Part shown: positions 7,341 to 58,907 of the stretch, in pieces
Layout of the letters: each line of letters begins with the position of its first letter
Position numbering within the stretch: position 1 is the first letter of the stretch
Assembly (NCBI RefSeq): GCF_003628535.1
Contig: NZ_RBCI01000014.1
Location: forward strand, 1-64,000
Direction of reading: 5' to 3'
Source of the DNA: Flavisolibacter nicotianae
GTDB lineage: Bacteria > Bacteroidota > Bacteroidia > Chitinophagales > Chitinophagaceae
Length of the DNA: 64,000 nucleotides
Position numbers and translations under genes: made by a program
Notes under the pieces: model-generated
What the model was told of the DNA's origin: nothing
The model's input: only the letters and a program-made list of their open reading frames with translations
Databases searched by the model: none

Positions 7341-8255
7341 GATTGCAGGTTTGATCGATCGCAGGAACGATGAATACGGCAATGCATTCGCGGCATGGCA
7401 GTAACGTTCATACCAAACCGAAAGGAAGGGAGGGAGATGTTGGCAGTCAGACGTCAAAAGTGAAACAGGGAAAATCTTTCGCTTCGTCGAGGACGTCTTT
7501 CTCACCATTCCCTTTTCCGTTTCACCACCAGTTGTCTCCTTCTTGAGCGGTTGGGCATCAGTTCTGCTTTTCATGGAAAAACAATTACAGCTTCCCGAGA
7601 GAAACGAATTGGAAAGGTTTGATCAGACGATATTCAAACCAGTCCTGGGTTGTGGTTACCATCTTCGCTACTGGGCTGTAAGAAAATAAGGGAGAGAGAG
7701 TCATTTTTTACAGCTAGTTATCCTGGTTGCTTCAGGGCCATTCTGCAGCCAAACCCGGTTCATCATCGGGAATCAGGCGATTTCTGCAGAAAACCCGGAT
7801 AAATATAGTTAATATTTTATTTATATGTAATTTATCTTCAATTTATTTTTCGTGGGTTTCTCTTCTTATTTGTGATGAGGAGATGGTGGATGACGGATGA
7901 AAATAGGGCAATCGGCAATCAGACGTTGGTTGTAGGGGGAGTGTATAGCGACCCTATGGGGTCGGGCCAGGAAGTTCAAGCCGATTTCGTCCTTACAGGG
8001 CTTGCGAAATGTTTTTCGTTTGTCTGCCGGTTTACCGGCCGCTTGAGACATTTGTCCTTCGGGGTCAGCCCGAATCGCTGTCCTGGCAGCAGGTTGTTTC
8101 CTTCGGTCTGCCGGCGATTTAAAAATGTGCGTGATAACTTCTTTGTGAAGGAAAAAATATTGCCTGTGACAATTCCAGAATGTTACGTTGTTCTGAAACT
8201 GGATGCCCATCCCCTATTGCCAGGAAAGGTTGTGACGGAAGATGCATTGGATGAT
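7341..8255. other. Intergenic region, about 0.9 kb
   Basis: The first 230 bases could extend the upstream giant gene in frame, but they encode nothing like a signal peptide, so I leave them out. An AT-rich stretch lies near 7790 to 7860. Around 7905 there is a GGCAATCGGCAATC reiteration, and at 7949 to 7964 a small hairpin (CGACCC, loop, GGGTCG). Overlapping frames on both strands between 7866 and 8264 look like noise. No RNA gene was recognised. Confidence 0.5.
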
Positions 8256-24709: not shown

Positions 24710-25789
24710 TCATACCAGGGGCAGGTCAAACTTTTCTCCCAGCGTTTTTAAATCGTCGACCACGGCCTGCAGGACCGGGATGCCAGCGTGTTTCCGCTCC
24801 GCTTCCATTTCCCGTTCCGGGTCGCCGGGGATGAGCACTTTTTCAAAGCCACCGGCTGTTTTGGCCGAACGGAAACGACGGATCCAGTTGTCCATGTGCT
24901 CCCTGAACTCCGATGCAGGACGGAAGGCATCCACCCGCATGGCGCCAAAAAAATGGCCGATGCCTTTGCCGGGCATGCCGGTCGGCATGGGCACATAGGC
25001 CGGGAAGGGCGGCACCCAGGGACCGTAATTGGCGCCGCTCAAAACGGCCGAAAAAATATCCACCACGGCACCCAATGCATAGCCTTTGTGGCTGCCGTGT
25101 TCACGGTCGCCGCCAAGCGGAAGCAGGGCACCGCCGTTTTTCAGTTCATGGGGATTCGTTGAGGGATGGCCGTCCTTGTCCTGTATCCAGCCCAAGGGCG
25201 CTTCTGCATTTTTACGCTGCAGGATCTCCAGCTTGCCGTTGGCTGCCGTGGTGGTGGCCAGGTCGGCAACAAAGGGCGGCTCTTCGCCTGCCGGGATCGA
25301 AACACAAATCGGGTTGGTGCCCAGCAGCCTCTCCACCGAAAATGTGGGTGAAACCAGGGGGCTTGCATTGGTCATGCAAATGCCGATCATGTCGTGCTCG
25401 AGGGCCATCATGGCGTGGTAGCCGGCGATTCCAAAATGATTGCTGTTTTGAACACTCACCCATCCCGTACCTACATTATTGGCCTTGTCGATGGCGATCT
25501 GCATGGCTTTGGGTGCCACTACCAGACCAAGACCGCTGTCGCCGTCGACCGTTGCGGTAGACGGTGTTTCGTGAAGAATTTTTATTACAGGTGTTGCATT
25601 GACACGCTTTGCTTCCCACAAACGCACATAGCCGCTCAGGCGGGCAATGCCGTGGGAGTCCACACCACGTATATCGGCTGAAAGTAAAACGTTGGTGGCC
25701 AGGGTGGCATCCTCTTCGGGACAGCCGATTTTCAGGAAGACGGATTTTGTAAAATCGAAAAGCTGTTGAAAAGAAAATACTGTAGACAT
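24710..25789 (-). CDS. Ldh-family (malate/L-lactate/ureidoglycolate-type) dehydrogenase
   Basis: The protein has about 359 residues and matches the NAD(P)-dependent Ldh_2 family, unrelated to classical malate dehydrogenase. Typical motifs include LSADIRGVDSHGIARL near the start, VQNSNHFGIAGYHAM, MTNASPLVSPTFS and HKGYALGAVVDIFSAVLSG. The His in SNHFG and the His in DSHGI are conserved in the family. The substrate cannot be told from sequence; malate, lactate, ureidoglycolate or a sugar acid are all possible. A TTG two codons upstream is possible, but the ATG was preferred. It precedes lysC on the same strand with a 60-base gap. Confidence 0.88.
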   Translation of the reverse strand: MSTVFSFQQLFDFTKSVFLKIGCPEEDATLATNVLLSADIRGVDSHGIARLSGYVRLWEAKRVNATPVIKILHETPSTATVDGDSGLGLVVAPKAMQIAIDKANNVGTGWVSVQNSNHFGIAGYHAMMALEHDMIGICMTNASPLVSPTFSVERLLGTNPICVSIPAGEEPPFVADLATTTAANGKLEILQRKNAEAPLGWIQDKDGHPSTNPHELKNGGALLPLGGDREHGSHKGYALGAVVDIFSAVLSGANYGPWVPPFPAYVPMPTGMPGKGIGHFFGAMRVDAFRPASEFREHMDNWIRRFRSAKTAGGFEKVLIPGDPEREMEAERKHAGIPVLQAVVDDLKTLGEKFDLPLV

Positions 25790-26044
25790 GCGCAAAGAAA
25801 CGAAAAAGTGTGTTTTAGGTTTGGCAGTTGGGGTTTAAGGCCATCATTCCAGGTCGCCCCTTCGCCTGGCTGTCTATTCCTAATTGCATTTGTTTTCGCT
25901 ACCAACGACCCGTTTAAAACCGCCAGGTACTTCTGTAAACATCCAACTACCCATCGGCTGTAAGAATGTCCCTGCAAAAGAAATAGTTTCGAAAACCGGA
26001 GAAATGCTAACAGATGTTGTAACTTAATATTGAAACTTTTCATT

Positions 26045-28171
26045 ATGTGGAGTTTCGTTTGCCACCGCCAGTCTAAGAGCTTCTGCGCATTTTTCTTTGC
26101 AGCCATCTTTTTTCTATCCTTCAACTGCCCCGCCCAAACCGAAAAGGAAGACAGCTTAAAAAATCGTTTGAAGCGATTGAAGGGCATCGCAAGAATTGAT
26201 TGTTTACTGGAGCTTAGCCAGCAATACTTTGGTACACCCAAAAAAGATTCCATCTTCTACTACGCAGACAAGGCTGCTGAAGAAGCCCAAAAAATCAATT
26301 ACAACCATGGGCTGGCGGTAGCGTGCCTGCGCAAATCAGGGTTCGCTGTTTGTTATCAAAACGACTTGCTCCAGGCAGAAAAACTGGCCCGGGAAGCGAT
26401 CAGTTGGTTTAGCCGCACCGCTAACAAAAAAGAAATCACCCTCGCTTACCAGATCCTGGGCCGTGCACAAACCGATCAAAGCCTTTACGACGAAGCCCTG
26501 ACGAACCTGAATCTTTTCCTGAAATGGGCGCAAATCACCAGCGACAGCGACTGGGTAGGGTTCAATCTTGAAACGATGACCGATATCTACCGGGAGCGCG
26601 GCGAATATGTGAAGCTCCTGGAAACACAACAGAAATTGATCCAGATGGATCGTGCGTCCGGCAATAACAACTATTATTCCTTTCACGAGTTATGGGTACT
26701 GGGCCTGATGTACCGGCTGTTGGAAGAATATGCCACAGCACTGCCCTTCTGGCGGAAGCTTTTCGTGGAAAGTCTGGGTGATCCTATCTCCTGCTGGAAT
26801 CAGATGGAATATGCCGAATTGCTGACCCAGGCAGGCCAGGCCGACTCAGCCCTTTATTATTACAACAAATTTGATTCAGCCGGAGCAGCGCAAAAAGACC
26901 TGCGCTTTTTTCTACTCAGCAAAGGTGAATACTACCTGTATTTAAAACAATACAGTACCGCCCTGCCTTATTTCCGGAAAGCCCTTCTGCTTCACCAGCA
27001 ACTGAACGACCGCCGGCAAACGAACCGGGCATTTCTTGATCTTGCCAAAACCTATGACGCATTACACAGGAATGATTCTGCCATTGCTTATGCGAGACAA
27101 GGATTAGCAATGGCTTTGCAAACAAAAGCAAAGCCCCTGATCCGTGACGGTTATAAAATTCTTTCCACGGTTTACGACCGCTTGCAGCAAAAGGATAGTG
27201 CCTATTTCTATTACCGGAATTATATCACCTTAAAAGACGCGGTAATGAACGATCAAACCAGGGGTAAAATGGCTGCTTATGATTACGAACATCGAATCGA
27301 AAACCTGGCGAATGAAAGGCAGTTGCAGCAACAGCAAATCGCACAAGCTTCCCTGCAAAAGAAATTGCTTCTTTTCGGCATAGCAGGACTCCTGCTGCTT
27401 GGCATTATCGTTTTGCGGAACATTCTGTTGAAACGAAAAAATGAAATCAATCGCCGAAAGCTTGCCGAAAGCCAACTTCAGCTCGAAAAACTGGAAGCAG
27501 AGCGAACGAAGGCCGAACTCCAGCAGCGAGCCACAGAACTCGAAATGCAGGCCCTTCGTGCCCAGATGAACCCGCACTTCATCTTCAATTCGCTGAATTC
27601 CATCAACCGGTTCATCCTGCAAAACAACCGGCAGGAAGCTTCCGAATACCTTACGAAATTCTCAAGACTAACGCGGTTGATCCTGCAAAACTCGCAATCG
27701 GCGCTCATTCCACTGGAAAGCGAACTGGAAGCCCTGCGGCTTTATTTGGAACTGGAAGCACTTCGTTTTGATCACCATTTTGTTTATACAATAAAGGTTG
27801 ACGATGATCTCGACGTTTCGGCCCTCAGCGTTCCGCCGCTGACCATTCAGCCTTTTGTGGAAAACGCCATCTGGCATGGGTTGATGCACAAAGAAGAAAG
27901 GGGCCATTTGGAAATTGCCGTGTTTGAAAAGGAAGATCAGCTGTGTTTCCAAATCACCGACGATGGTATCGGCCGAAAAAAAGCGGCGGAGTTCAAAAGC
28001 AAATCAGCGGCTACGCACAAGGCAATGGGCATGCGCATAACCACTGACCGCATCGCCATGCTGCAGCAAAACAGTCTACAGAAACCTTTTTTCATCATCC
28101 ACGACCTAGTGTTGCCCGACGGCAGCCCCGGCGGCACGGAAGTATGGCTACGCATTCCGGCAACCCTATAA
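26045..28171 (+). CDS. TPR-containing LytS-type sensor histidine kinase
   Basis: The ATG chosen starts a signal peptide (MWSFVCHRQ, hydrophobic core, NCPAQ). Residues about 35 to 400 form a periplasmic array of tetratricopeptide-like helices (ALTNLNLFLKWAQ, ALPYFRKALLLHQQL, AIAYARQGLAMALQ). A single membrane helix is at about 440 to 462 (FGIAGLLLLGIIVL), followed by a coiled coil. The catalytic half is of the His_kinase (PF06580) type: QMNPHFIFNSLNSIN with phospho-acceptor H511, the N-box PFVENAIWHGL and the G-box DDGIGRKKA. No response regulator is adjacent; the nearest lies beyond SusC, SusD and a second kinase on the same strand. The catalytic half is a near-copy of that second kinase. The stop lies 41 bases before the susC-like gene. 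Confidence 0.92.
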   Translation: MWSFVCHRQSKSFCAFFFAAIFFLSFNCPAQTEKEDSLKNRLKRLKGIARIDCLLELSQQYFGTPKKDSIFYYADKAAEEAQKINYNHGLAVACLRKSGFAVCYQNDLLQAEKLAREAISWFSRTANKKEITLAYQILGRAQTDQSLYDEALTNLNLFLKWAQITSDSDWVGFNLETMTDIYRERGEYVKLLETQQKLIQMDRASGNNNYYSFHELWVLGLMYRLLEEYATALPFWRKLFVESLGDPISCWNQMEYAELLTQAGQADSALYYYNKFDSAGAAQKDLRFFLLSKGEYYLYLKQYSTALPYFRKALLLHQQLNDRRQTNRAFLDLAKTYDALHRNDSAIAYARQGLAMALQTKAKPLIRDGYKILSTVYDRLQQKDSAYFYYRNYITLKDAVMNDQTRGKMAAYDYEHRIENLANERQLQQQQIAQASLQKKLLLFGIAGLLLLGIIVLRNILLKRKNEINRRKLAESQLQLEKLEAERTKAELQQRATELEMQALRAQMNPHFIFNSLNSINRFILQNNRQEASEYLTKFSRLTRLILQNSQSALIPLESELEALRLYLELEALRFDHHFVYTIKVDDDLDVSALSVPPLTIQPFVENAIWHGLMHKEERGHLEIAVFEKEDQLCFQITDDGIGRKKAAEFKSKSAATHKAMGMRITTDRIAMLQQNSLQKPFFIIHDLVLPDGSPGGTEVWLRIPATL

Positions 28172-28212
28172 ATGAAAAACGTACGCCCTTTTGATAATCG
28201 CAAACAACGGTT

Positions 28213-31176
28213 ATGAAAAAGAAGTACGCACCATGCAAAGGATTGCTCCCGTTAACGATGCTGTTGTTCACGGGCATCGTGGTCATTGCCCAGCCAAAAA
28301 TTTCCGGAATCGTCCGCGGCGCGGAAGGCCTACCGCTGGCAGGTGTTACCATCGCGATCCAGGGCACACCAGTTGCCACGTCCAGTGCGGCAGATGGCAG
28401 CTTTTCCATTCTTGCCAAAAAGGGCGACGTCTTGATTTTTTCAACGGTTGGAAGAGAAAAGGCAATGGTCAAACTACTTGACCAGGTCTTTCTCAACATC
28501 AGTTTGCCATTCAACAGCAAAAGCCTGGAAGACGTGGTGATCATCGGGTATGGAACAAGTCAGAAGAGAGACCTAACAGGTGCCGTCGCGAAAATAACTG
28601 CCGGCGATTTCAATAAAGGCAACGTTACCGACCCGCTTCAACTGGTGCAGGGCAAGATCGCCGGCCTGTTGATCACTAAGCCGGGAGGCGATCCAAATGG
28701 CGAACTCACTGTTCGCATCCGTGGCGCCACTTCTCTGGAAGGGCAACCCCCGCTGGTTGTCATTGACGGTATGGCTATCGATGATTTCTATAAAGCCATT
28801 TCCACGCTCAATCCGGCCGACGTGGAATCGTTCACAGTTTTAAAGGATGCTTCTTCCGCCGCCATTTACGGCTCCAGGGGAGCGAACGGTGTATTGCTGA
28901 TCACAACAAAAACCAGCCGGATTGCCAAACCGGTTGTGGCCTACGACGGATGGTGCGGGGTCGAACAAATTTCCCGCCGGTTTCAGGTATTAAATGCCTC
29001 GCAATGGAGAGCCGCTACGGCTGCACTCGGCGGTGCCAGCCTTGATCAGGGTGCTGACATGGACTGGCAAAGCGCTATCTCTCAACGGGCTTTTTCACAC
29101 AGTCACACCATCAGTATTCGGGGCGGCACAGACGCCATGAATTATCGCGGCTCGATGGGATATATCAATCAGGAGGGAGTGATCATCAATACCGGGAAGG
29201 AAGTGATGACCGGCCGTTTGAACATTCACCAAAAAAGCCTGAATGAAAAACTGGCAGTCGACTACAACATCAATGCATCTGTTACCAATCGCACTCTGCT
29301 TTTCGACCAGTGGTCCACCGGTCTGACACGCACCGGTGGCAGTTTTACCTTTGACGTTGCCTCAGGCTATCTTCCCGTATGGCCGTCTTACAACCCTGAC
29401 GGCTCTTATTTCAATATTGCCAACAACAGCTATTTAAACCCTCTTTTCCTGTTGAAGGAGATTGACAGGAAACAGCGGGAAAATTTTTTCCAGACCTCCG
29501 TCAAAGCAGATTATACGCTTCTAAAAGGACTGAATGCAGGAATATTGGGGGCGCTTTCAAGAGCCAACACCGTTCACGACTATTTCTATCCTGGTGTGAG
29601 GGAAAGAAATGACAAAGCAGAAGCCTCCAAATTCAACAACAACAAACAAAACTTCTCCGGCGACATTCATGTTCACTACCAGAAAAGCTTTCGAAAACAA
29701 ACCGCAGAGATCACCGGTGTGTACGAATACAATCGATTTATCAATGATGGTTTTGGTGTAACAGCAAGAGGTTTCTTAGTTCCGCAACTCCTGAATAACA
29801 ACCTGGGAACGGCGACCAATGTACAAACCGGCGATCTTTCTTCGTATAAGAATGAAGTGAAACTGATTTCGTTTTTAGGCCGGCTGGTTTATACGTATGA
29901 CAACCGCATCATTTTTACAGCCAACTTCCGGCGAGACGGCTCTTCCAAATTTGGCAGCAACAACCGGTGGGGTAACTTTCCTTCTTTTGCTTTTGCCTGG
30001 CGGCTTGACCGTGCCGGTTTTCTCAAAAACAGCAAATGGCTGAATGATTTGAAATTGCGTGTGAGTTATGGATTTACCGGCAACCAGGAAAATTTGCCTC
30101 CTTATGCCTACCAGCAGCTTTATGGTCCCACCGGCCCTTACCTGTATAACGGGCAGGTGCTTCAAAGCTATGCGGTGGTTCAGGAGCCGAATCCGGACCT
30201 GAAATGGGAAGTCAGAAGATCGCTGAACATAGGCGCCGACTTCACCCTCTTCAACGATCGCCTTCATGGCACCATTGACGTATTTCACGATAAGACCAGC
30301 GACATGCTGTTTCTGTATGATCTTCCGCAGCCCCCTTTTTTATCGGATAAAGTCTCGGCCAATGCCGCAACTGCAACTAATAAAGGCACCGAAGTTACCC
30401 TAGATGCAACGCCACTCCTTACTAAAAACTGGAAATGGGATCTTCACTTCAATATCGGTACGCTCAAGAACAGGATCACGAATCTTTCCGGCCAGTTCAA
30501 CGGAACTTCTCTTTCGATTACTAACCGTCACTACGGTTATGCGGAAGGAGCTGGTTTCAGCGGCACCTATGTTTCCGAATTAAAGCCCGGTTATCCTGCC
30601 GGTGTTTTTTGGTTGCCGCAATTTGCCGGTTTGGATGCTGACGGACATGCACTGTATAACAACTATGATGGGAACGGAAAGCTGTCCGGCACTTCGATGT
30701 TTTATACCGATAAGGACCGGGTTTTTATTGATCCGACGCCTAGATTTTCCTGGGGTTTTACAACGAACCTTACCTACAAGCGTTTTGATCTTTCATTTTT
30801 CCTCAGAGGCGTACAAGGGCAGAAAATATTTGCCAATTCCTTGTTGAATTTAGGCACCTCCGTCTTTCTGCCGGCCAGGAATGTGGGTGTTGATGCACTC
30901 ACCAACGGTTTTGCCGATCAACCGCAACCTTCCTCGTACTGGGTCAAAGACGGATCCTTTGTGCGGCTTGACAATGTAACGGCAGGTTACCGTTTCAAAG
31001 GGACAAAAGACCTTGCGATTTTACGGCTCTATGTTACCGCATCCAACCTGCTCCTCCTGACGAAGTACAAAGGCATTGACCCAGAAATAAGGACCGAAGG
31101 CGCACAACGCTATATCGACAACCAGTATTACCCGAAAACAAAAGGTTTCCTGCTCGGTGTGAACATGGCGTTCTGA
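28213..31176 (+). CDS. SusC/RagA-family TonB-dependent outer-membrane receptor
   Basis: SusC-type proteins import glycans, peptides or other large ligands across the outer membrane using TonB energy, with a SusD lipoprotein as lid. The 987-residue protein has a signal peptide ending at VIAQ and a carboxypeptidase-like regulatory domain (ISGIVRGAEGLPLAGVTIAI). The family signature LEDVVIIGYGTSQKRDLTGA follows, then a plug domain with VESFTVLKDASSAAIYGSRG. The beta-barrel runs to a C-terminal aromatic residue (LLGVNMAF). It is followed by susD-like and flanked by two sensor kinases. No glycoside hydrolase or peptidase gene accompanies it, so the ligand is not indicated. An anti-sigma (FecR) gene is absent. 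Confidence 0.95.
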   Translation: MKKKYAPCKGLLPLTMLLFTGIVVIAQPKISGIVRGAEGLPLAGVTIAIQGTPVATSSAADGSFSILAKKGDVLIFSTVGREKAMVKLLDQVFLNISLPFNSKSLEDVVIIGYGTSQKRDLTGAVAKITAGDFNKGNVTDPLQLVQGKIAGLLITKPGGDPNGELTVRIRGATSLEGQPPLVVIDGMAIDDFYKAISTLNPADVESFTVLKDASSAAIYGSRGANGVLLITTKTSRIAKPVVAYDGWCGVEQISRRFQVLNASQWRAATAALGGASLDQGADMDWQSAISQRAFSHSHTISIRGGTDAMNYRGSMGYINQEGVIINTGKEVMTGRLNIHQKSLNEKLAVDYNINASVTNRTLLFDQWSTGLTRTGGSFTFDVASGYLPVWPSYNPDGSYFNIANNSYLNPLFLLKEIDRKQRENFFQTSVKADYTLLKGLNAGILGALSRANTVHDYFYPGVRERNDKAEASKFNNNKQNFSGDIHVHYQKSFRKQTAEITGVYEYNRFINDGFGVTARGFLVPQLLNNNLGTATNVQTGDLSSYKNEVKLISFLGRLVYTYDNRIIFTANFRRDGSSKFGSNNRWGNFPSFAFAWRLDRAGFLKNSKWLNDLKLRVSYGFTGNQENLPPYAYQQLYGPTGPYLYNGQVLQSYAVVQEPNPDLKWEVRRSLNIGADFTLFNDRLHGTIDVFHDKTSDMLFLYDLPQPPFLSDKVSANAATATNKGTEVTLDATPLLTKNWKWDLHFNIGTLKNRITNLSGQFNGTSLSITNRHYGYAEGAGFSGTYVSELKPGYPAGVFWLPQFAGLDADGHALYNNYDGNGKLSGTSMFYTDKDRVFIDPTPRFSWGFTTNLTYKRFDLSFFLRGVQGQKIFANSLLNLGTSVFLPARNVGVDALTNGFADQPQPSSYWVKDGSFVRLDNVTAGYRFKGTKDLAILRLYVTASNLLLLTKYKGIDPEIRTEGAQRYIDNQYYPKTKGFLLGVNMAF

Positions 31177-31225
31177 TGGGACTTCCGGCCTTGTGACATA
31201 TTCCTGGAAACAAAAAGAATGACAC

Positions 31226-32755
31226 ATGAAAAAAATCATTCAAATACCATCGGCCATCGGCCTTTTTATCCTGCTCCACTCCTGCACCAAACTGGAGACG
31301 AACGTATACGATAAAGTGACCCGTTTTTGGCAAACGCCGGAACAGGTAGCGGCAGGTGTTGCTCCTGCATACACCAAACTAAGAGATATCATGGCTCCCG
31401 ATGGCATGTACGCCTTGCTGGAAATATCCTCGGATGAAATCATTGTTCCTACCCGTGGCGGCGACTGGGCTGACAACGGCATCTGGAGAGATCTATGGAT
31501 GCATACCTGGACACCCGGCAGTTCCCCGGTTGAAAACGGATGGCAATTCCTTTACAGTGCCATTGCCCGGGTGAATACGATCTTAAAAACTGTGGAAGCA
31601 TTGAATCCGAAACCTGCCACTTTCACTTCTATACAAGCCGAATTGAAGATCATACGGGCTTTTTACTACCTGCAGGCACTCGACCTGTTTGGCAATGTGC
31701 CCATTGTATATGAAAATGCCGATGTTTCCTGTCTCAAAAACACACCCCGTGCCGACGTATTTGCCTTTGTCGAAAAAGAGATCAAAGACAACCTGCCCCA
31801 GCTAACCACTGAGGTAAATTCGTACACCTATGGCCGGGCCACACAATGGTTTGCGTATGCCATGCTGGCCAAGCTGTATTTGAATGCGATGGTGTATACC
31901 GGGAGACCGCGTTGGGCAGATTGTATTGCCGCCTGTGATGCGATCCTGAACAGTAAGCATTACCTGTTGGAGACGGATTTCTTTGCCAATTTTTCCATTG
32001 CGAATGAAAGCTCCAAAGAAAACATTTTCGTGATTCCGTTCGACCGCGAAAAAGGCCTTGATTTTTTCGGCATCCAGCTTTTTACCCTGAACTATGTAAG
32101 CAATGCCAGTTTCGGGCTCGAAGCCGGAGGCGTGAATGGCTTATGCAGCCCGGCAGCCATCTATCAACAGTTTGACTCCCGGGACAGAAGACGGAAAATG
32201 TTCCTGGTTGGCCAGCAATACATCAACCAGGTAGAGGACCCGGCGCATTTGCAATACGACAGGTTGGGCCATCCGCTCATTTTTGACCCGGTCATCACCA
32301 CGTTCAGAATCCCCTTTCCACAGGCAGAAGGTGCGGGTGCACGCTGTGCCAAATGGGAATTCAACAAACAGGGCTTTGGGAATATGAGCAATGATTTTGC
32401 TATTTACCGGCTTGCGGACATTATCCTGATGAAAGCCGAAGCGCAATTCCGGAACGGCGATGTTGCCGCTGCTCTCACCACCATTAACCAAAAGATTGGC
32501 GGTGTTTCCATCCGGAGCCGTGCAGGAATGCCGGACTTTTCCGCCGGCGAAATGAATCTCGACGGCTTGCAGGCGGAACGGGAAAGAGAGCTTTCCTGGG
32601 AGGGACACCGCCGCACGGACCTGATCCGCTTTGGCCACTTTACGGATGCAAGAACCCCGGAAAAGGGCGTGTCGGAAAACTATCGAACCATGTTCCCGAT
32701 CCCTGAACCCGAATTGGCGAAAAATCCCTGCCTGGTGCAAAATCCGGGCTATTGA
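31226..32755 (+). CDS. SusD/RagB-family nutrient-binding outer-membrane lipoprotein
   Basis: The 509-residue protein begins with a lipoprotein signal (MKKIIQIPSAIG, then LLHSC with lipidated C20). The SusD helical core is visible in the TPR-like segments (NGWQFLYSAIARVNTIL, IRAFYYLQALDLFGNVPIV, YAMLAKLYLNA). The C-terminal RagB motif LQAERERELSWEGHRRTDLIRFG is characteristic, as is the end PIPEPELAKNPCLVQNPGY. It sits 49 bases after the SusC-like gene and should cover its barrel. The binding-site composition cannot be read from sequence. The gene is followed directly by the second sensor kinase. Confidence 0.95.
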   Translation: MKKIIQIPSAIGLFILLHSCTKLETNVYDKVTRFWQTPEQVAAGVAPAYTKLRDIMAPDGMYALLEISSDEIIVPTRGGDWADNGIWRDLWMHTWTPGSSPVENGWQFLYSAIARVNTILKTVEALNPKPATFTSIQAELKIIRAFYYLQALDLFGNVPIVYENADVSCLKNTPRADVFAFVEKEIKDNLPQLTTEVNSYTYGRATQWFAYAMLAKLYLNAMVYTGRPRWADCIAACDAILNSKHYLLETDFFANFSIANESSKENIFVIPFDREKGLDFFGIQLFTLNYVSNASFGLEAGGVNGLCSPAAIYQQFDSRDRRRKMFLVGQQYINQVEDPAHLQYDRLGHPLIFDPVITTFRIPFPQAEGAGARCAKWEFNKQGFGNMSNDFAIYRLADIILMKAEAQFRNGDVAAALTTINQKIGGVSIRSRAGMPDFSAGEMNLDGLQAERERELSWEGHRRTDLIRFGHFTDARTPEKGVSENYRTMFPIPEPELAKNPCLVQNPGY

Positions 32756-32832
32756 ATCCGTGAAAGGTGAAACGTAAGATGTGAAAACGCAAAATGGCTC
32801 CCATGCTTTTGTTGGAGCGAAAATTTTACCAT

Positions 32833-35800
32833 ATGCTGCCCAAAAAGAGTGTTTACATCATCGCCACTAGTTTTTTGTTTTGGGTTTGTGTATCCGCGCA
32901 AGAACAATACCGGGCCATCCCCTGGGATGTAGAGCAGGGGCTTTCGCTTGGCATCGTCCATTGTATGCTGAAAGATGGCAATAAGTTTTTGTGGGTAGGT
33001 TCTGCCTTCGGTCTGAACCGGTTTGACGGCAGTCATTTCAAAAATTACTTCGGGGATAAAAACAATAACAGAACACTCAGCGGAGGTGTCATCCTCTCCC
33101 TTGTCGAAGACAGCCTGCACAATATCTGGATCGGAACTAATAAAGAGTTAGCCCGCTACGACAGCAAAGCAGATACCTTTTCCAATTTCTCGGCCTATGT
33201 TGATACCACCATAGCCGCCCCTTATACGATACCCTTCTGGGCTACCCGCAATGAAGTGTTTTGTATCGAAATGAAAGCAAGGATTTCGGCCTATGATATA
33301 CACTCGTTTAAAAGAAGAACTGTTGTTGCGCATTTCCAGAACGACTGGGACTTTCAGCTGCTCAGGCCAGCTTGTTCCATTTTGGATGAAAGGACCCATG
33401 AGGTTTGGATGCTGGCTAAAGCCGGATTGCTGCAGGTTTCATTGGCTACCGGGAAACAAACCCCATACACTTTCCCCTGCCGCAGAAAGTTAAAGTTCCC
33501 AGGCTACGTTCATACCTCACAAGCCATGTGTTTTGACTCCAAAAGAAGGTTGATCTGGTTAAACACATCCGATGGACTCGTTCAGTTTAGCCTCAACGAC
33601 AGGAGATTCGTTTCCATCGAAGAATTCGATCCAATTGTGAATACAAAGCCACAGCCGCATGAAGGCGCTTATTATGCCACCGATCGCATTGGCCTTGATT
33701 TGAAAGGCAGGGTTTGGACAGGAACTGTACCCAGGGGAATTCTCATTTATGATCCGGCAAACCGTTCGATCACACAACCCCGGATCGATAACGTCCAGGC
33801 AACTGTTTCCAATGCCCTCTCTCCTGCTTATTTTGACCGTGACGGACTCATTTGGGTCGTGGGTGGCGGAAAAGCATTCTATCAATTAAATCCAATCCGG
33901 CCTGCTGTTACACATTTCACGGCTGATCCGGCAAAGCCGTTTGCACTCAGCGATAACCATGTTGCTACCATTGTTCAGGGTCCCCATAAAAAGTTATGGA
34001 TCGGCACGTGGAATGGCATCGACATTTTTGATCCGGTCACAGGTTCATTCCAGTTGCTAAGAGAGAAAGATTTGCCCGGCTTTAAAGGAAAGAACATTAT
34101 GCCTTTGGCAATGGATTCCTCCCTTCAAACAACCTGGTTAAAAGCCTGGCCCCCGGACGCCTTGTTTGAAATGGATGTGGCATCCAGGAAGTGCAGGCTC
34201 ATTCAAGTGAATGATACGGCCTGGAACCATCGAGTGAATTTGGGCGACATGGAAGCGGAAAGAGCGTTGCCGTTTCATAACGGATTTATCTTCCTGATGC
34301 AGGGCATCGGTATTTTTCGTGTTGAAAAAGAAAGTTTACTGGCAGAACCGATGCTTTCATTTTCCCAGGCGATTATCCAGATGGTTCCCCTGGGAGATCA
34401 TTTCATTTTTCTGAACACACCGAATGCCGCCCATAACCTCACTTTTATCAAAAAATCGGGAAAGTGGATACTCAGCCCAAGCCCTCTGGACTCCATACGA
34501 TGGTCCGTTATTTTTTTTAACAAAGAAGATCAATCTTTTTGGGTAGGAGAGCCAAGAGACATCCTCCACCTGGACAAGGACCTCCATCTCCTTCGTCGTT
34601 ACTCCGAGGGATTTCCCGGTGTGCTTGTTTCTTCCTTGCTGGCAGATAATGACGGCAATATCTGGTTTGTAAATGGTCAAAATCAGATTTCGAAGCTCAA
34701 CACAAGAAACGGCAAGTTTCTTTCTTTATCGGAGAGAGATGGCATGCCAAAACAAAAATTTTATTGGGAGCATGCACATCTAAAGGATGTTTATGGCAAC
34801 CTGTATTTTGGCTCCCAGGAAGGATTCATTCAAATTCGTCCAGCTGAATTCGCGGACATCTATCCACCCTCCTTCGTCTATCTGAAGGCGATTAATATCA
34901 ATCAAAAACCCGCTTTGCATTCGACTGGCGCCAACTATGTGGAGGAACTGTCTTTAAAGCACAATGAAAATAATCTCAACATCGAAACCGGCATCATCGA
35001 TTATTATTCGGAAGGGAATAGCCGCCTACGCTACCAATTAGAAAACGTCAACAAAACCTGGCAATACGGTACCAACCCGTTTACCATCAATCTGGACGGT
35101 TTGCAGCCGGGACGATACCGGCTGGTGATGCAGGCTTCCAACGCTGTGGATGAATTCAATGGACCGGAGAAGATTTTGTGGATTACCATCCAACCACCCT
35201 GGTGGGGTACCTGGTGGTTCCGCGGATTAGCCGTTCTCTGCCTGGCTCTCATCTTCTATAGCCTGATCCGCTGGCGTCTTCACCAGAAATTCCGTATGCA
35301 ACTGGAACGTACCAAAAAAGAAAAACAACTGGCCGAACTACAGCAACAAAAAACCGAACTGGAAATGCAAGCCTTACGGGCTCAGATGAACCCGCATTTC
35401 ATTTTCAACTCTCTTAACTCAATTAACCATTTTATCTTGCAAAACAACAAACTGAAAGCTTCGGAATACCTGACGAAGTTTTCCCGTTTGGTACGTTTAA
35501 TCCTGCAAAACTCCCAGGCACCATTGATCCCATTGGAAAGCGAATTGGAGGCTTTACAACTCTATTTGGAATTGGAGTCTATACGGTTTGATCACCATTT
35601 TGATTATGTCATTACCGTTCAGGATGATATTGATTCTTCGACAGTAATGGTCCCACCGCTTATCATTCAACCCTATGTAGAAAACGCCATCTGGCATGGG
35701 CTGATGCACAAAGAAGAAAAAGGTCATTTGCAGATCGGGATTGTGCAGCACGATGATACCTTGTATTGCACGATCACCGACGATGGTGTTGGGAGACAAA

Positions 35801-35994
35801 AAGCCGCCGAGCTAAAAAGCAAATCCGCCTCCAGCCACAAATCCATGGGCATGCGCATTACAGCGGATCGCATTGCCATGCTCAGGCAGAAAAAACAGCC
35901 CGGATTCTATGTTCGCATCACCGACCTTGCACTCCCTGATGGACGTGCCGGTGGAACGGAAGTCACACTACAAATACCGGTTCAATATGATTAA
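32833..35994 (+). CDS. Two-propeller (Reg_prop/Y_Y_Y) LytS-type sensor histidine kinase
   Basis: The chosen ATG opens a signal peptide (MLPKKSVYIIATSFLFWV, then SAQ). Residues about 25 to 690 carry beta-propeller repeats of the two-component regulator propeller type (FLWVGSAFGLNRFDGSHFKN, NIWIGTNKELARYD, KLWIGTWNGIDIFDP). Residues about 700 to 785 form a Y_Y_Y-like domain. One membrane helix at about 795 to 815 precedes a coiled coil and a PF06580 kinase with H855 in QMNPHFIFNSLNSIN, N-box PYVENAIWHGL and G-box DDGVGRQKA. Unlike the hybrid two-component sensors of polysaccharide loci it lacks receiver and AraC domains. The signal should go to the adjacent LytTR regulator, whose ATG overlaps this gene by eight bases. 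Confidence 0.93.
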   Translation: MLPKKSVYIIATSFLFWVCVSAQEQYRAIPWDVEQGLSLGIVHCMLKDGNKFLWVGSAFGLNRFDGSHFKNYFGDKNNNRTLSGGVILSLVEDSLHNIWIGTNKELARYDSKADTFSNFSAYVDTTIAAPYTIPFWATRNEVFCIEMKARISAYDIHSFKRRTVVAHFQNDWDFQLLRPACSILDERTHEVWMLAKAGLLQVSLATGKQTPYTFPCRRKLKFPGYVHTSQAMCFDSKRRLIWLNTSDGLVQFSLNDRRFVSIEEFDPIVNTKPQPHEGAYYATDRIGLDLKGRVWTGTVPRGILIYDPANRSITQPRIDNVQATVSNALSPAYFDRDGLIWVVGGGKAFYQLNPIRPAVTHFTADPAKPFALSDNHVATIVQGPHKKLWIGTWNGIDIFDPVTGSFQLLREKDLPGFKGKNIMPLAMDSSLQTTWLKAWPPDALFEMDVASRKCRLIQVNDTAWNHRVNLGDMEAERALPFHNGFIFLMQGIGIFRVEKESLLAEPMLSFSQAIIQMVPLGDHFIFLNTPNAAHNLTFIKKSGKWILSPSPLDSIRWSVIFFNKEDQSFWVGEPRDILHLDKDLHLLRRYSEGFPGVLVSSLLADNDGNIWFVNGQNQISKLNTRNGKFLSLSERDGMPKQKFYWEHAHLKDVYGNLYFGSQEGFIQIRPAEFADIYPPSFVYLKAININQKPALHSTGANYVEELSLKHNENNLNIETGIIDYYSEGNSRLRYQLENVNKTWQYGTNPFTINLDGLQPGRYRLVMQASNAVDEFNGPEKILWITIQPPWWGTWWFRGLAVLCLALIFYSLIRWRLHQKFRMQLERTKKEKQLAELQQQKTELEMQALRAQMNPHFIFNSLNSINHFILQNNKLKASEYLTKFSRLVRLILQNSQAPLIPLESELEALQLYLELESIRFDHHFDYVITVQDDIDSSTVMVPPLIIQPYVENAIWHGLMHKEEKGHLQIGIVQHDDTLYCTITDDGVGRQKAAELKSKSASSHKSMGMRITADRIAMLRQKKQPGFYVRITDLALPDGRAGGTEVTLQIPVQYD

Positions 35995-36727
35995 AGCGAT
36001 TTTAATTGATGATGAAGCGCATTGCCTGGATACCCTCAGTATATTACTGCATGAATATTGCCCTGATGTGCAAATTATAGCCCGGTGCCGCTCCGGTAAC
36101 GAAGGTTTGCAAGCCATCAAAAAAAGTAAACCCGATTTAATTTTTCTCGACATCGAAATGCCCGGCATGAACGGCTTTGAACTGCTGGAACAGTTTACCG
36201 AAATTCCGTTTGCCATCATCTTCACCACCAGTTATGATCAATATGCTATCAAAGCCATCCGTTTCAGTGCGCTGGATTATTTGCTCAAGCCCGTTGATCC
36301 CAACGAGCTGACCGGCGCCATCAAAAAAGTGCGGGAACAGCGTCATTTACCAATAGCCGAGCAATTCCAGATGCTGCTGAAGCAAATTCAAAACAAAGAC
36401 CACCAGTTCAACAAGATTGCAGTGCCGACGGTAGAAGGCTTTGAATTGATCCCGGCCGATGAGGTCATCCGTTGCGAGGCAGATGACAACTACACTCATC
36501 TTTTCCTTAAGAACAAAAGCAAGATCACTGCCTGCCGCACCCTGAAAGAAATGGAGGAACAGCTTCGCGACTTTCCCTTTTTCATCCGGGTGCACCACTC
36601 CTATCTTGTCAACCTGAATGAAGTTACCAAATACATTCGCGGCGAGGGTGGCTACCTTGTGATGAGCGATGGCAGCACGGTGAACGTTTCGCGAAGCCGG
36701 AAAGAAGAACTATTAAAACGCTTCTGA
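35987..36727 (+). CDS. LytTR-family DNA-binding response regulator
   Basis: The 246-residue protein has a receiver domain (residues 1 to about 120) with acidic residues D8-D9, phospho-acceptor D55 in LIFLDIEMPG, and the conserved TSYDQYAIKAI and LKPVDP segments. A LytTR domain follows from about residue 140 (VIRCEADDNYTHLFLKN, FIRVHHSYLVNLNEVTKY). Such proteins bind paired 9-base sites about 21 bases apart. The start overlaps the stop region of the second kinase, indicating translational coupling. It is the only regulator for both kinases in this locus. A 21-bp-spaced direct repeat just downstream is a candidate binding site. Confidence 0.95.
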   Translation: MIKAILIDDEAHCLDTLSILLHEYCPDVQIIARCRSGNEGLQAIKKSKPDLIFLDIEMPGMNGFELLEQFTEIPFAIIFTTSYDQYAIKAIRFSALDYLLKPVDPNELTGAIKKVREQRHLPIAEQFQMLLKQIQNKDHQFNKIAVPTVEGFELIPADEVIRCEADDNYTHLFLKNKSKITACRTLKEMEEQLRDFPFFIRVHHSYLVNLNEVTKYIRGEGGYLVMSDGSTVNVSRSRKEELLKRF

Positions 36728-36834
36728 ACATTCAACCTTCAACAGAATTTTCTTAGGTCCTGCTCCTCTTCATTCATCCCTGATTTTTCCTGTCATCGGT
36801 CAAACCCGCAAGCAGCTTGCAAAGCCCGTTAATT

Positions 36835-36876
36835 ACTCACCGTCTTTGACCATTCACTCACCGCCGTTAACGATGC
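36835..36876 (+). promoter_or_regulatory. 21-bp-spaced direct repeat, candidate LytTR binding site
   Basis: ACTCACCG occurs twice with starts exactly 21 bases apart, once followed by TCTTTGACC and once by CCGTTAACG. LytTR regulators typically bind two direct repeats with this spacing. It lies about 60 to 100 bases upstream of the small secreted protein gene and just after the LytTR regulator gene. The match to the published LytTR consensus is only partial. Confidence 0.45.
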
Positions 36877-36937: not shown

Positions 36938-37426
36938 ATGAAAAAGCACTTCTTCCTGCTGGCAATTGTTCTGTCTACCGCGTTCTTTGCTTCATGGGGC
37001 CAGTTCAGGCCAACCGTTTTGACCGAACCTTCCACTGAACATTATGCGAAAGCCAACATACCGCTGATGGTGCAGGGAGAGTTCCGGCACGCGTATCCCA
37101 ATGCAACTGATGATGCATGGGCAAAGCTCAAGACTGGATACTTTGTCAATTTCTCTTCTCAGGACGGCATCCACTGCAATGCCTGGCTGAACAAAAAGGG
37201 CAAGGTGATCGACCAGATTCGCTACCTGACCGAAGCCTACCTACCTGATCGCGTTCTCCGGCAGATCCACAACCTGGGTAGCTGCATTTCCATTGGATTG
37301 GTGAAGGAAGTTACAACAGAACTTGGCACTGCGTACCTGGTGACCATCGATGAAGGAGCTACCTGGAAAGTTCTACGCATCTCGGGCGAAGAAATGGAAG
37401 TTTATGAAGATCATAAGAAGGGATAA
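36938..37426 (+). CDS. PepSY-like secreted protein (162 aa)
   Basis: The signal peptide is clear (MKKHFFLLAIVLSTAFFASWGQ). The mature part resembles the PepSY-like (formerly DUF2874) fold found in small periplasmic proteins of Bacteroidota: VQGEFRHAYPNATDDAWAKL, then FVNFSSQDGIHCNAWLNKKG and IDQIRYLTEAYLPDRVL. The pattern is an alpha helix that ends near a D-A-x-W motif, followed by beta strands. Related domains inhibit proteases or bind peptides, but the function here is unknown. It follows the LytTR gene with a 210-base gap that holds a candidate regulator site and an 18-bp palindrome, so it may be a target of the neighbouring system. A terminator follows. Confidence 0.75.
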   Translation: MKKHFFLLAIVLSTAFFASWGQFRPTVLTEPSTEHYAKANIPLMVQGEFRHAYPNATDDAWAKLKTGYFVNFSSQDGIHCNAWLNKKGKVIDQIRYLTEAYLPDRVLRQIHNLGSCISIGLVKEVTTELGTAYLVTIDEGATWKVLRISGEEMEVYEDHKKG

Positions 37427-38253: not shown

Positions 38254-39381
38254 TCAGTTTTCGGCGACAACCTCGTCGCCGGCCGAAGCCTCCACGAAAT
38301 ACGAACGCAAAAAATAGTGGCGCACTGCCGATGCATAAGCTTCCATGCTGGTGATTGCCCTTTCCCTCTCTGCGGCTGTTTTGTATTCCTGCGTTCGCTG
38401 ATAACCGGGAAACTCCAGGGTGAACGTGCGAATGGCAGGACGGCTCAGCGAGACGTTTTCGGCACAGACAGCGGTACTGCACCAGGTACCCAGCGTAACG
38501 CCGCGGGTCGCCGGTTCACCGTCGGCCTGCTGAAAACTGCGCACCTGTTTTTTGCCTTTCGCTGCTGCGGGCGGATCGAGATGATAAAGAGCAGTGGGGT
38601 TTGCATCCAGCCGGTTGCCGGGGCAATCGCCGCCAAAAACCCGGATGTGCTCTGCCATCAGCAGGGCCAGTTCCCTGTCCGTCCCAAAACCCTGTGCATT
38701 TCCCCTGCAATCTGTCCGCGGATCGGCAAACACACCGGCTTTGCTTTCGTCGCGGATGCTGTGAAGGCTGAGCACACGGTGGGGTTGCCAGGTTTGAAGG
38801 AGTTGCAAGAGTGCCCTGTTTTCGTTTTCAATTTTGCGATGGAATGCATCCACGCTTTTTTCCTGTAAAAACGGCATTCCGGGCAAAGGCATCTGGCGAT
38901 TCGGATCGGCTGTTCGACCGGATGTCTGTCGTCCCGTGTTTTTCTTCACCCGGTCCGTTTTGTCCAGCAGGGCCGCCTCGGCGTTATCGGGAAAGAGGGA
39001 GGGAATGATGATGACACTGTAATAAGGCCTGCGGTCTTCGGAGAGCTGGCTGATAAGTGTTGTGGCCAGTTCGATGGAAGACAATTCGGAGCCATGCATG
39101 CCGCCAATGACGAGAGCTTTTTTCCCGCTCAACCCCGGGAAGAAAAAAAGTTCCACCGGCTTTTTCTTCGCGGTGTACAAAAGCACGGCTTTTTGCGGCC
39201 TGCCGGACTGCACCAGTTCCACGATACTCACCGTCGGTTTACCTGAAGGTCCGGAAACCACCGTGGTCTCCTGTGTGTCGCCGGCCAGCCTGGTGCCATA
39301 GAGATAAACCAGTTCCGGTTCCTGCGCCAGCGTGACACAGAATGAATGGAAAAGCAGGACAAAAAGGAAAATGCTTTTCAT
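38254..39381 (-). CDS. Exported M14-family zinc carboxypeptidase-like protein
   Basis: A signal peptide (MKSIFLFVLLFHSFCVTLAQ) is followed by a metallocarboxypeptidase-like domain. The zinc ligands of M14 are visible: H96 and E99 in GGMHGSELSS, and H207 in VLSLHSIRD. D159-P160-N161-R162 matches the substrate-binding NR motif. E323 in TFTLEFPG matches the catalytic Glu. At 375 residues it is a single domain. It probably trims peptide or cell-wall substrates in the periplasm; peptidoglycan amidase or amidohydrolase activity is a possible alternative. It converges on the YdeI-like gene with one base between. Confidence 0.82.
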   Translation of the reverse strand: MKSIFLFVLLFHSFCVTLAQEPELVYLYGTRLAGDTQETTVVSGPSGKPTVSIVELVQSGRPQKAVLLYTAKKKPVELFFFPGLSGKKALVIGGMHGSELSSIELATTLISQLSEDRRPYYSVIIIPSLFPDNAEAALLDKTDRVKKNTGRQTSGRTADPNRQMPLPGMPFLQEKSVDAFHRKIENENRALLQLLQTWQPHRVLSLHSIRDESKAGVFADPRTDCRGNAQGFGTDRELALLMAEHIRVFGGDCPGNRLDANPTALYHLDPPAAAKGKKQVRSFQQADGEPATRGVTLGTWCSTAVCAENVSLSRPAIRTFTLEFPGYQRTQEYKTAAERERAITSMEAYASAVRHYFLRSYFVEASAGDEVVAEN

Positions 39382-47547: not shown

Positions 47548-48672
47548 ATGATTGCCACCCAAAACACCGTGCCTTTTGCCGCCCATGATTCCGAACTTGC
47601 CTACCGCTGGACCGCTGAGAAAGCCCAGGAATGGATGGAGAAAAACGGCTGGCTTGTCGGCTGCAACTACATCCCCAGCAACGCCATCAACCAGCTGGAA
47701 ATGTGGCAGGCCGAAACCTTTTCACCGGAACTGATCGACAAAGAGCTGGGCTGGGCTGCCAGCCTGGGTTTCAATACCGTTCGGGTGTTCCTGCACAACC
47801 TCCTTTGGGACCAGGACAGCCAGGGTTTTCTCAACCGCATTAATACCTTCCTGGACATCGCTTACAAATACAAGATCCGGACGATGCTGGTGCTGTTCGA
47901 CGCCGTTTGGGACCCTTTCCCGAAACTGGGCGTACAACCGCAACCCAAGCACAACGTGCACAACTCCGGCTGGGTACAAAGTCCGGGGTATGATGTGCTG
48001 AACAACCCTGCCCGCTACGACAGCCTGCACGCCTATGTGCACGGTGTTGTTTCCCATTTTAAAAACGACGAGCGGGTGCTGATCTGGGACCTGTACAACG
48101 AGCCGGATAACATGAACCTGACCTCGTACAAGGACGACGATTACATTGTGCACAAGGCCGAACTGTCAATGGCCCTGCTGAAAAAGACCATCAACTGGGT
48201 GCGGGTGATCAATCCCACGCAGCCCATCACCATGGCGCCCTGGCAAAACGAGTGGGGTTGCGATAGCCGCATCACGGCCCTGGACAACTACATGTTCAGC
48301 CATTCCGACATTGTGAGCTTTCATTGCTACGAGAACCGCGAAGGCATGGAAAGACGAATCCGGGACATCCAGCGCTACGGCCGCCCGATGCTCTGCACCG
48401 AGTACATGGCCCGGATGTTCAACAGCACCTTCCAGGAAATCCTGCCCCTGTTCAAGCAATACGGCATCGGCGCTTACAACTGGGGATTTGTGGCCGGTAA
48501 GTCGCAGACGCACTGCCCCTGGGACAGCTGGCAGATTCGCTACGAAAACGAGCCGGAACTTTGGTTCCATGACATCTTCCGCGAGAACGGTGAGCCCTAC
48601 ATCCGGGAGGAAGTGGAATTCTTAAAGGGCATGTTGAAGAAGCAACAGGAGAAGGCGTTGCAGGTGGCGTAG
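47548..48672 (+). CDS. GH5-like glycoside hydrolase, cytoplasmic type (374 aa)
   Basis: The protein has a TIM-barrel glycosidase pattern of the cellulase/clan GH-A type. The acid/base Glu is at E185 in IWDLYNEPDN and the likely nucleophile at E285 in MLCTEYMAR. Other core segments are WLVGCNYIPSNAINQLEMW, LGFNTVRVFLHNLLWD and YNWGFVAGKSQTHCPWDSW. No signal peptide is present, so it probably acts in the cytoplasm on imported sugars, or exits by another route. Similar proteins are often annotated as 1,4-beta-xylanase, but the substrate is not assured. It is divergent from galK. A GGATATT reiteration and a terminator follow. Confidence 0.82.
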   Translation: MIATQNTVPFAAHDSELAYRWTAEKAQEWMEKNGWLVGCNYIPSNAINQLEMWQAETFSPELIDKELGWAASLGFNTVRVFLHNLLWDQDSQGFLNRINTFLDIAYKYKIRTMLVLFDAVWDPFPKLGVQPQPKHNVHNSGWVQSPGYDVLNNPARYDSLHAYVHGVVSHFKNDERVLIWDLYNEPDNMNLTSYKDDDYIVHKAELSMALLKKTINWVRVINPTQPITMAPWQNEWGCDSRITALDNYMFSHSDIVSFHCYENREGMERRIRDIQRYGRPMLCTEYMARMFNSTFQEILPLFKQYGIGAYNWGFVAGKSQTHCPWDSWQIRYENEPELWFHDIFRENGEPYIREEVEFLKGMLKKQQEKALQVA

Positions 48673-58585: not shown

Positions 58586-58907
58586 GGATCTAAGGTAAGA
58601 CAATAGCGCAAAACCAATCTTGCTGACGTAAAGGGTAGCTCTGCCTTGTCAGTGACGCTGGTGATGACCATCAGTTTACCCGTTGATGGCTATCATTCAA
58701 GGCAATTCCTATTGCCGGTATTTTAGCTTTTTGGAATTTCTGAAAGCTTTTTTACGCTTTGAAAAGAAAGCGGCAAACATTCTGGGTGTTGAAATTTTTT
58801 TTATCACTACGCAGGCTCTTCAGTAATTATTTATACCCTGAATGTTTCCCACTCCAATCAGTCTCCACTTAGATTTCTGCCATTCATACACAACAAAACT
58901 TATTGTT
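58586..58907. other. Divergent intergenic region
   Basis: The 322-base gap holds a small hairpin (GGCAAT and ATTGCC at 58701 to 58716) and an AT-rich tract around 58790 to 58830. No perfect promoter box was found. Confidence 0.5.

Follow-up and report, generated by a model that had tools for sequence, protein, structure and literature searches.

A candidate two-sensor LytS/LytTR circuit around a SusC/SusD pair in Flavisolibacter nicotianae

A SusC/SusD pair (SusCD) of Flavisolibacter nicotianae is located between two LytS-type sensor kinases and is followed by a single LytTR response regulator (RR), which raises the question of whether two inputs act through one regulator on one outer membrane pump. 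The locus was analyzed within a 64,000-nt stretch of contig NZ_RBCI01000014.1 (assembly GCF_003628535.1), referred to below as the window. The first kinase, with a TPR sensor, was named K1, and the second, with a propeller sensor, was named K2; L and G numbers denote loci and genomes of relatives. Our analysis points to an autoregulated two-sensor circuit, which we consider probable, controlling the SusCD operon and a small secreted BLIP-like protein.

Organization of the operon

The TPR kinase, SusC, SusD, propeller kinase, and LytTR regulator, which the original prediction had placed on one strand, were all found in that order.

26030–28171, plus strand: K1, LytS-type sensor kinase (TTG start; alternative ATG at 26045), TPR_12 and His_kinase PF06580 in Pfam; N-terminal signal and one apparent transmembrane segment (both judged by eye), TPR sensor, and PF06580 catalytic half from ~27458
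28213–31176, plus strand: SusC, SusC/RagA TonB-linked outer membrane protein, plug and barrel, TIGR04056
31226–32755, plus strand: SusD, PF07980 and PF14322
32794–35994, plus strand: K2, LytS-type sensor kinase, sensor with Reg_prop (PF07494) propeller and Y_Y_Y-like part, PF06580 catalytic half from ~35281
35987–36727, plus strand (reading frame): RR, receiver PF00072 and LytTR PF04397

The intergenic gaps were small (K1–SusC 41 nt, SusC–SusD 49 nt, SusD–K2 38 nt), so the five genes are likely co-transcribed as one operon. The K2 stop and the RR frame overlapped by 8 nt. In both kinases, an apparent signal at the N terminus and a membrane-spanning segment preceding the catalytic half were recognized by eye; therefore, both sensors are probably periplasmic.

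The PF06580 domains of K1 and K2 scored 82.8 and 81.0 bits (cut-off 25.2), and the H-box and N-box peptides quoted in the original prediction were present in both. The adjoining RR contained a receiver (77.5 bits) and a LytTR domain (62.8 bits), which completed a LytS/LytTR system. The Y_Y_Y match in K2 was under its Pfam cut-off, and NCBIfam gave no specific name for either kinase. The best NCBIfam model for the RR was the BtsR equivalog NF008677 with 139.2 bits, under the cut-off of 246; as judged from these matches, the RR would work like BtsR and is not a member of that equivalog. SusC matched TIGR04056 with 687.5 bits (cut-off 368.25) and adjoined a SusD with a PF07980 score of 94.8 bits (cut-off 23.1), as in a SusC/SusD pair, while the CarboxypepD_reg-like match of SusC was under its cut-off. 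In the PDB, the nearest chains were 8aa4_A ('SusC homolog') for SusC and 3jys_A for SusD, and neither settled the cargo.

Two other modes of control were rejected. Extracytoplasmic function (ECF) sigma/anti-sigma control was rejected because an STN domain was not matched in SusC at E 0.01 and the operon had no sigma or anti-sigma gene inside it. The architecture of a hybrid two-component system (HTCS) was rejected because K2 ended after its ATPase part, with no fused receiver or AraC-type Pfam match at E 0.01.

Two kinases and one regulator

The genome contained 22 PF06580 kinases, and only K1 and K2 belonged to the subfamily of the RR. The catalytic halves of the other 20 were 23–36% identical to that of K1 or K2 (the paralogue in L222, 26% and 29%), so that K1 and K2 formed an exclusive pair within the genome. 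Apart from this RR, no regulator of its subfamily was found in the 6.1-Mb, 100%-complete assembly, and the next best regulators were ~36–40% identical to it. By these comparisons, K1 and K2 belong to a kinase subfamily tied to the RR, and since they are its sole kinases beside a single close RR, both very likely feed that regulator.

In 7 of the 142 loci compared (window, L093, L097, L101, L142, L172, and L186), one RR came after two or three kinases; in this count, loci truncated at a contig end (for example, L170) were not taken as tandem, and at least one stretch appeared twice (L066 and L200 are the same contig). Three more of these loci had two kinase–RR pairs, or one pair plus a further kinase. 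The convergence of two inputs on one regulator, as originally predicted, was thus supported by the subfamily exclusivity and by this recurrence. In L093 (1–4795), three tandem kinase genes preceded one LytTR regulator.

Candidate binding site of the regulator

Repeated boxes were found upstream of K1 and of the BLIP-like gene that follows the RR.

25902–25911, 25923–25932, and 25943–25952, plus strand: three direct-repeat boxes upstream of K1 with spacing of 21 and 20 bp, candidate RR site
36829–36838 and 36850–36859, plus strand: two direct-repeat boxes upstream of the BLIP-like gene (two-box matrix), candidate RR site
36938–37426, plus strand: small secreted protein of 162 aa with a BLIP-like/PepSY-like fold, a recurrent neighbor of the RR (24 homologues aligned)

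The motif set was drawn from 27 loci of the RR clade and contained 40 regions upstream of SusC, BLIP-like genes, or kinase operons. Direct repeats were in excess at lags 20 and 21 (14 hits at each, where shuffles gave 2.9 and 1.85), while other lags gave 0–7; neighboring windows of one repeat were counted separately. The two-box model gave CCAAYTACYC with boxes 20–21 bp apart. Its log-likelihood was 264 at lags 20/21, compared with 29.7–32.4 for three shuffles and 67.6–105.4 for four other lag pairs, which also recovered single boxes and are not pure noise.

A matrix trained on the 38 upstream regions from outside the window was then run on both strands of the 64-kb window. The three best sites started at 25923 (21.2 bits), 25902 (16.0 bits), and 36829 (15.6 bits), and the best unrelated site had 15.2 bits. 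A score of at least 16 bits was reached by 31 of the 40 target upstream regions, by 6 of 249 other upstream regions of the same loci, several of which adjoined an RR or kinase, and by 1 of 30 kinase upstream regions beside more distant RRs. The site preceded SusC in three of the four loci where SusC comes first. In 11 of 16 BLIP-like genes, the best site started 107–116 nt before the gene, and the position of −109 in the window fits these relatives. LytTR sites have been described as two repeats of 9–11 nt with spacers of 11–13 nt (PMC4847170). The boxes of the window were 10 nt long with spacers of 10–11 nt, and by this comparison of sequences their length and spacing fit the described sites. 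The paired boxes are a new candidate RR site, common across the RR clade.

The BLIP-like protein is likely a second target of the RR. Its AlphaFold2 model had a pLDDT of 85.5, and in Foldseek all eight chains with E ≤0.001 came from five Bacteroidales periplasmic entries (TM ~0.55–0.58), including 4fr9 (BLIP-like), 4k61, and 4ipb (DUF2874). PF11396 was matched in 4 of the 24 homologues and was absent from the window copy. As a guess, the protein could act with the sensors as a feedback partner in the periplasm.

Proposed circuit

In the proposed circuit, signals would be received in the periplasm, by either the TPR sensor of K1 or the propeller sensor of K2, and the catalytic halves, being of one subfamily, would pass phosphate to the same receiver. 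The phosphorylated RR would bind the paired CCAAYTACYC boxes upstream of K1 and would raise or lower expression of the K1–SusC–SusD–K2–RR operon and of the secreted BLIP-like protein. Uptake by SusCD and sensing would thereby be joined in one positive or negative loop. If the circuit is as proposed, LytTR control would join the established modes of SusCD pump regulation, and the locus would offer a ready system for studying the integration of two sensors by a single response regulator. With the predicted box pair, both regulon and circuit can be tested directly.

Regulator neighborhoods in relatives

The RR search covered 394 genomes of the family, and 43 had a match at E 1e-88 or better. The order SusC–SusD–propeller kinase–RR was found in other genera in L167, L168, L169, and L188. 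In G102, a longer order was found, SusC–SusD–propeller kinase–7TMR-DISM kinase–receiver/cyclase–RR (L170 and L183, whose contig ends have 168 nt in common at 100% identity). Among 27 loci, some of which were cut by contig ends, SusD stood directly before 6 of 12 propeller kinases and before none of 20 short-sensor kinases. The recurrent SusC–SusD–propeller kinase–RR order and the common two-box site before the operons supported the kinase/LytTR control of SusCD that had originally been predicted. The complete order kinase–SusC–SusD–kinase–RR was specific to the window among the 142 loci and did not recur as such, but its component parts recurred in other combinations; the refuting condition of the original prediction, an arrangement confined to this strain, thus held by half.

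An Ldh_2 gene flanks K1 in the window and was also beside the kinase–RR pair in L067, L174, and L176, where the sensors differed. Since the same flank recurs beside pairs of different sensors, this position suggests a single chromosomal site with changing sensors.

24710–25795, minus strand: Ldh_2 malate/lactate dehydrogenase (Pfam)

In four loci, a second regulator, composed of a receiver and a class III nucleotidyl cyclase, was located between a kinase (or contig end) and the LytTR RR. Its receiver is of the same kind as in the RR, so a single kinase may act on transcription as well as on a cyclic nucleotide in these loci.

L183, 5146–6207, minus strand: receiver–cyclase protein, PF00072 and PF00211
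L167, 5778–6797, minus strand: receiver–cyclase protein, PF00072 and PF00211
L177, 3003–4073, minus strand: receiver–cyclase protein, PF00072 and PF00211
L182, 474–1511, plus strand: receiver–cyclase protein, PF00072 and PF00211

Alternative explanations

Several observations weigh against the proposed circuit. The 31 of 40 targets with a good site are not an out-of-sample count, as 38 of the 40 had trained the matrix, and nine of the 40 had no good site, including SusC of L188 (8.0 bits) and the kinases of L033 and L192. The site before the BLIP-like gene of the window, at 15.6 bits, was below the 16-bit line and marginal against the best unrelated site. In the same genus, a single kinase without SusCD stood beside a close RR, with a TPR sensor in G003 (RR 86% identical) and G006 (72%) and with a propeller sensor at both loci of G005 (80% and 74%), so the ancestral role of the RR need not be control of SusCD. 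Furthermore, K1 could serve a regulator other than the RR of the window. The locus would then be two adjoining systems, in which the regulator of K1 has been lost or lies elsewhere and only K2 and the RR form a working pair controlling SusCD. In G167, similar kinases occur as two full tandem pairs, SusC–SusD–kinase–RR and kinase–RR (L168, with the second RR match at G167:C498:3354–4091), so that the window may have lost one RR, and L069 and L047 likewise had two kinase–RR pairs in tandem. Two separate systems nevertheless seem unlikely, since the assembly yielded no further RR of the subfamily, K1 keeps the conserved catalytic motifs, and the K1 orthologue of G324 (sensor and catalytic half each 68% identical) is the first kinase of a kinase–kinase–RR operon with one RR (L172). 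The SusCD pair, for its part, would be a chance passenger between kinase and RR if it stood outside the circuit. The window SusC and SusD were not orthologues of the pairs beside other K2-type sensors: they were 31–32% and 26–29% identical to those of L167–L170, which were 48–58% and 54–62% identical among themselves, and were nearer (41–44% and 45–47%) to a family beside FG-GAP/UnbV proteins without kinases (L144 and L150). In spite of this, wherever a K2-type sensor came with a catalytic half and readable upstream sequence (five loci, the window and L167–L170), the kinase was immediately preceded by SusC–SusD, which indicates that the SusCD slot was conserved even if its occupant changed and makes a passenger quite improbable.

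The catalytic halves of K1 and K2, originally predicted to be near-copies, were less alike than that description implied. They were 71% identical by local and 70% by global alignment of amino acids, and 73% identical over 567 nt, while K1 was 72% identical to a kinase of G167 and K2 was 74% identical to one of G005. Between propeller and short-sensor kinases of the same subfamily in different genomes, catalytic identity had a mean of 62.1% (standard deviation 5.3, maximum 76.6, 236 pairs), and 19 of the 236 pairs reached at least 70%. The position of the window pair in the upper part of this range would agree with a recent local duplication or gene conversion that made the halves alike, and such events are seen in relatives (L142 of Aquimarina atlantica and L186 of G187). 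Against this, the synonymous sites of the two halves were saturated (proportion of synonymous differences, pS, 0.77), a sister relation was rejected by the approximately unbiased test (p 0.019), and the K2 half was placed inside a nine-row clade with support of 97/98 from which K1 was absent. On these grounds, the idea that the catalytic half was recently duplicated in the window was rejected, and a recent local origin of the likeness by either route is very unlikely indeed. The tree and alignments indicate that the likeness is an old, subfamily-wide property, somewhat above average here, with no recent copy.

Apparent sensor exchange among the kinases

Of more interest than the likeness of the catalytic halves is that sensors seem to be exchanged repeatedly while the core stays constant. 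The K2 sensor formed a group with five sensors from other genera (G258, G167, G190, G102, and G381; support 100/100), but a single clade of the catalytic halves of these six K2-type kinases was rejected (p 0.0003), and the clade containing the K2 catalytic half was in turn rejected when tested on the sensors (p 1.7e-11). The groups of the one-clade tests on catalytic halves were set by sensor similarity, and the tests were run after the catalytic tree was known; the group including L210 has a long branch, and its very small p is not to be taken at face value. The K1 sensor grouped with G324, G307, and G216, also at 100/100. The catalytic half of the G307 kinase (L210) was only 44% identical to that of K1 despite its K1-like sensor. 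Many inner branches of the trees were unresolved. A search with the K2 sensor found only the window among 396 genomes of the order, while 5 of the 293 other genomes in the family sample had such a sensor; one of these five (L171 of G087) had no catalytic half. The sensor and catalytic trees thus conflict, and the SusCD of the window differs from the pair beside the nearest K2 sensors; parts have been exchanged. The K1-like kinase of L210 (10286–13175) combined a sensor of 56–57% identity with this distant catalytic half and a more distant RR (51%), which suggests transfer of a sensor between kinase subfamilies.

Sensor and catalytic halves also differed in divergence within relatives. The kinases of L178 and L180, from different genomes, were 41% identical in sensors and 83% in catalytic halves. 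The tandem TPR kinases of A. atlantica (L142) had sensors 46% and catalytic halves 96% identical, with synonymous divergence (dS) of 1.19 and 0.25, respectively, and the tandem kinases of L186 had 34% and 84%, with saturated synonymous sites in the sensor and a catalytic dS of 0.66. In G167, the TPR and propeller kinases of neighboring operons had 80% catalytic identity. The contrast was weaker in other tandem pairs (sensor/catalytic identity of 41/66% in L172 and 27/59% in L097; 55% catalytic identity in L170), and the pair of L101 (66/89%) was a plain duplicate. By these alignments, some relatives have indeed undergone exchange or conversion, while no recent event was evident in the window. 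The pair of L142 (5533–10000), which precedes one RR and is 93% identical over 917 nt at the catalytic end, was a clean case of gene conversion.

As a tentative model, which we hold to be plausible rather than probable, the catalytic half and the LytTR regulator would form a fixed docking core, and sensors, alone or with SusCD, would be swapped when homologous recombination acts through the conserved catalytic half. Where tandem kinases share one regulator, occasional gene conversion would keep their catalytic halves compatible. The window would then be an assembly in which K1 came from a kinase–kinase–RR operon, the K2 sensor from a lineage linked to SusCD, one catalytic half from a different clade, and SusCD from a third source. 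If this holds, a cell could gain a second input and a new uptake pump without evolving a new regulator or target sites. Natural chimeras, in which the same catalytic half carries a TPR, propeller, or 7TMR-DISM sensor, would also reveal functional sensor joints, which bear on the evolution of signaling specificity and on sensor engineering.

The nearest relatives of the window SusC (L144, 6657–10498; L145; L146; L147) were preceded by a conserved gene of ~243–245 aa, NUDIX-regulator-like by eye. In the same loci, two FG-GAP/UnbV-like proteins came next, Pfam having been applied to the first of them in L144 and L150.

Comparison with known systems

The HTCS of polysaccharide loci in Bacteroidota have a periplasmic sensor with Reg_prop and Y_Y_Y and adjoin SusCD. 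K2 likewise had a Reg_prop and Y_Y_Y-like periplasmic sensor beside SusCD, whereas it had no fused receiver and AraC domain; the operon had instead a PF06580 kinase and a separate LytTR regulator, with no glycan-degrading gene inside it. The loci L167, L168, L169, L170/L183, and L188 shared the order SusC–SusD–kinase–RR, with RRs 70–76% identical to that of the window, but the window had a TPR kinase before SusC, and the SusCD of those loci belonged to another subfamily. G102 differed further by its 7TMR-DISM kinase in second position and its extra receiver–cyclase protein. The operon of L172 in G324 shared with the window the K1 orthologue, an RR of 83% identity, and a BLIP-like gene with an upstream site, while its second kinase had a TPR sensor and it had no SusCD.

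The BtsS/BtsR and YpdA/YpdB systems of E. coli are LytS/LytTR systems for nutrient sensing with an uptake transporter gene as target (PMC10653868; PMC5552118). The operon resembled them in its PF06580-type kinase, LytTR regulator, and predicted transporter target, and in its direct-repeat boxes (PMC4847170); BtsR was also the best, sub-threshold NCBIfam model of the RR. In E. coli, each kinase has its own regulator and BtsS is a 7TM receptor, whereas the operon had two kinases with probably periplasmic TPR and propeller sensors beside one regulator. Its target would also differ, being a SusCD pair inside the same operon. The proposed circuit would be comparable in logic to BtsSR/BtsT of E. coli. 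In the open literature searched, no paper was found that deals with SusCD regulation by LytTR proteins or with conversion between the catalytic halves of histidine kinases, which does not prove absence.

Other genes of the window

Inside 26–36.7 kb, no degradative enzyme was found, as originally noted, and with no carbohydrate-active enzyme beside SusCD in that interval the locus did not qualify as a polysaccharide utilization locus. Among 18 further window proteins scanned, an M14-like carboxypeptidase (38254–39381, minus strand) and, 11 kb downstream, a GH5-like enzyme (47548–48672, plus strand) were found outside the interval. Two very long reading frames on the minus strand (2256–7574 and 8663–13411), encoding 1772 and 1582 aa, had no Pfam match at E 1e-5. 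A protein of 1461 aa (58842–63227, plus strand) contained DUF5122 propeller repeats and a type IX secretion tail (PF18962).

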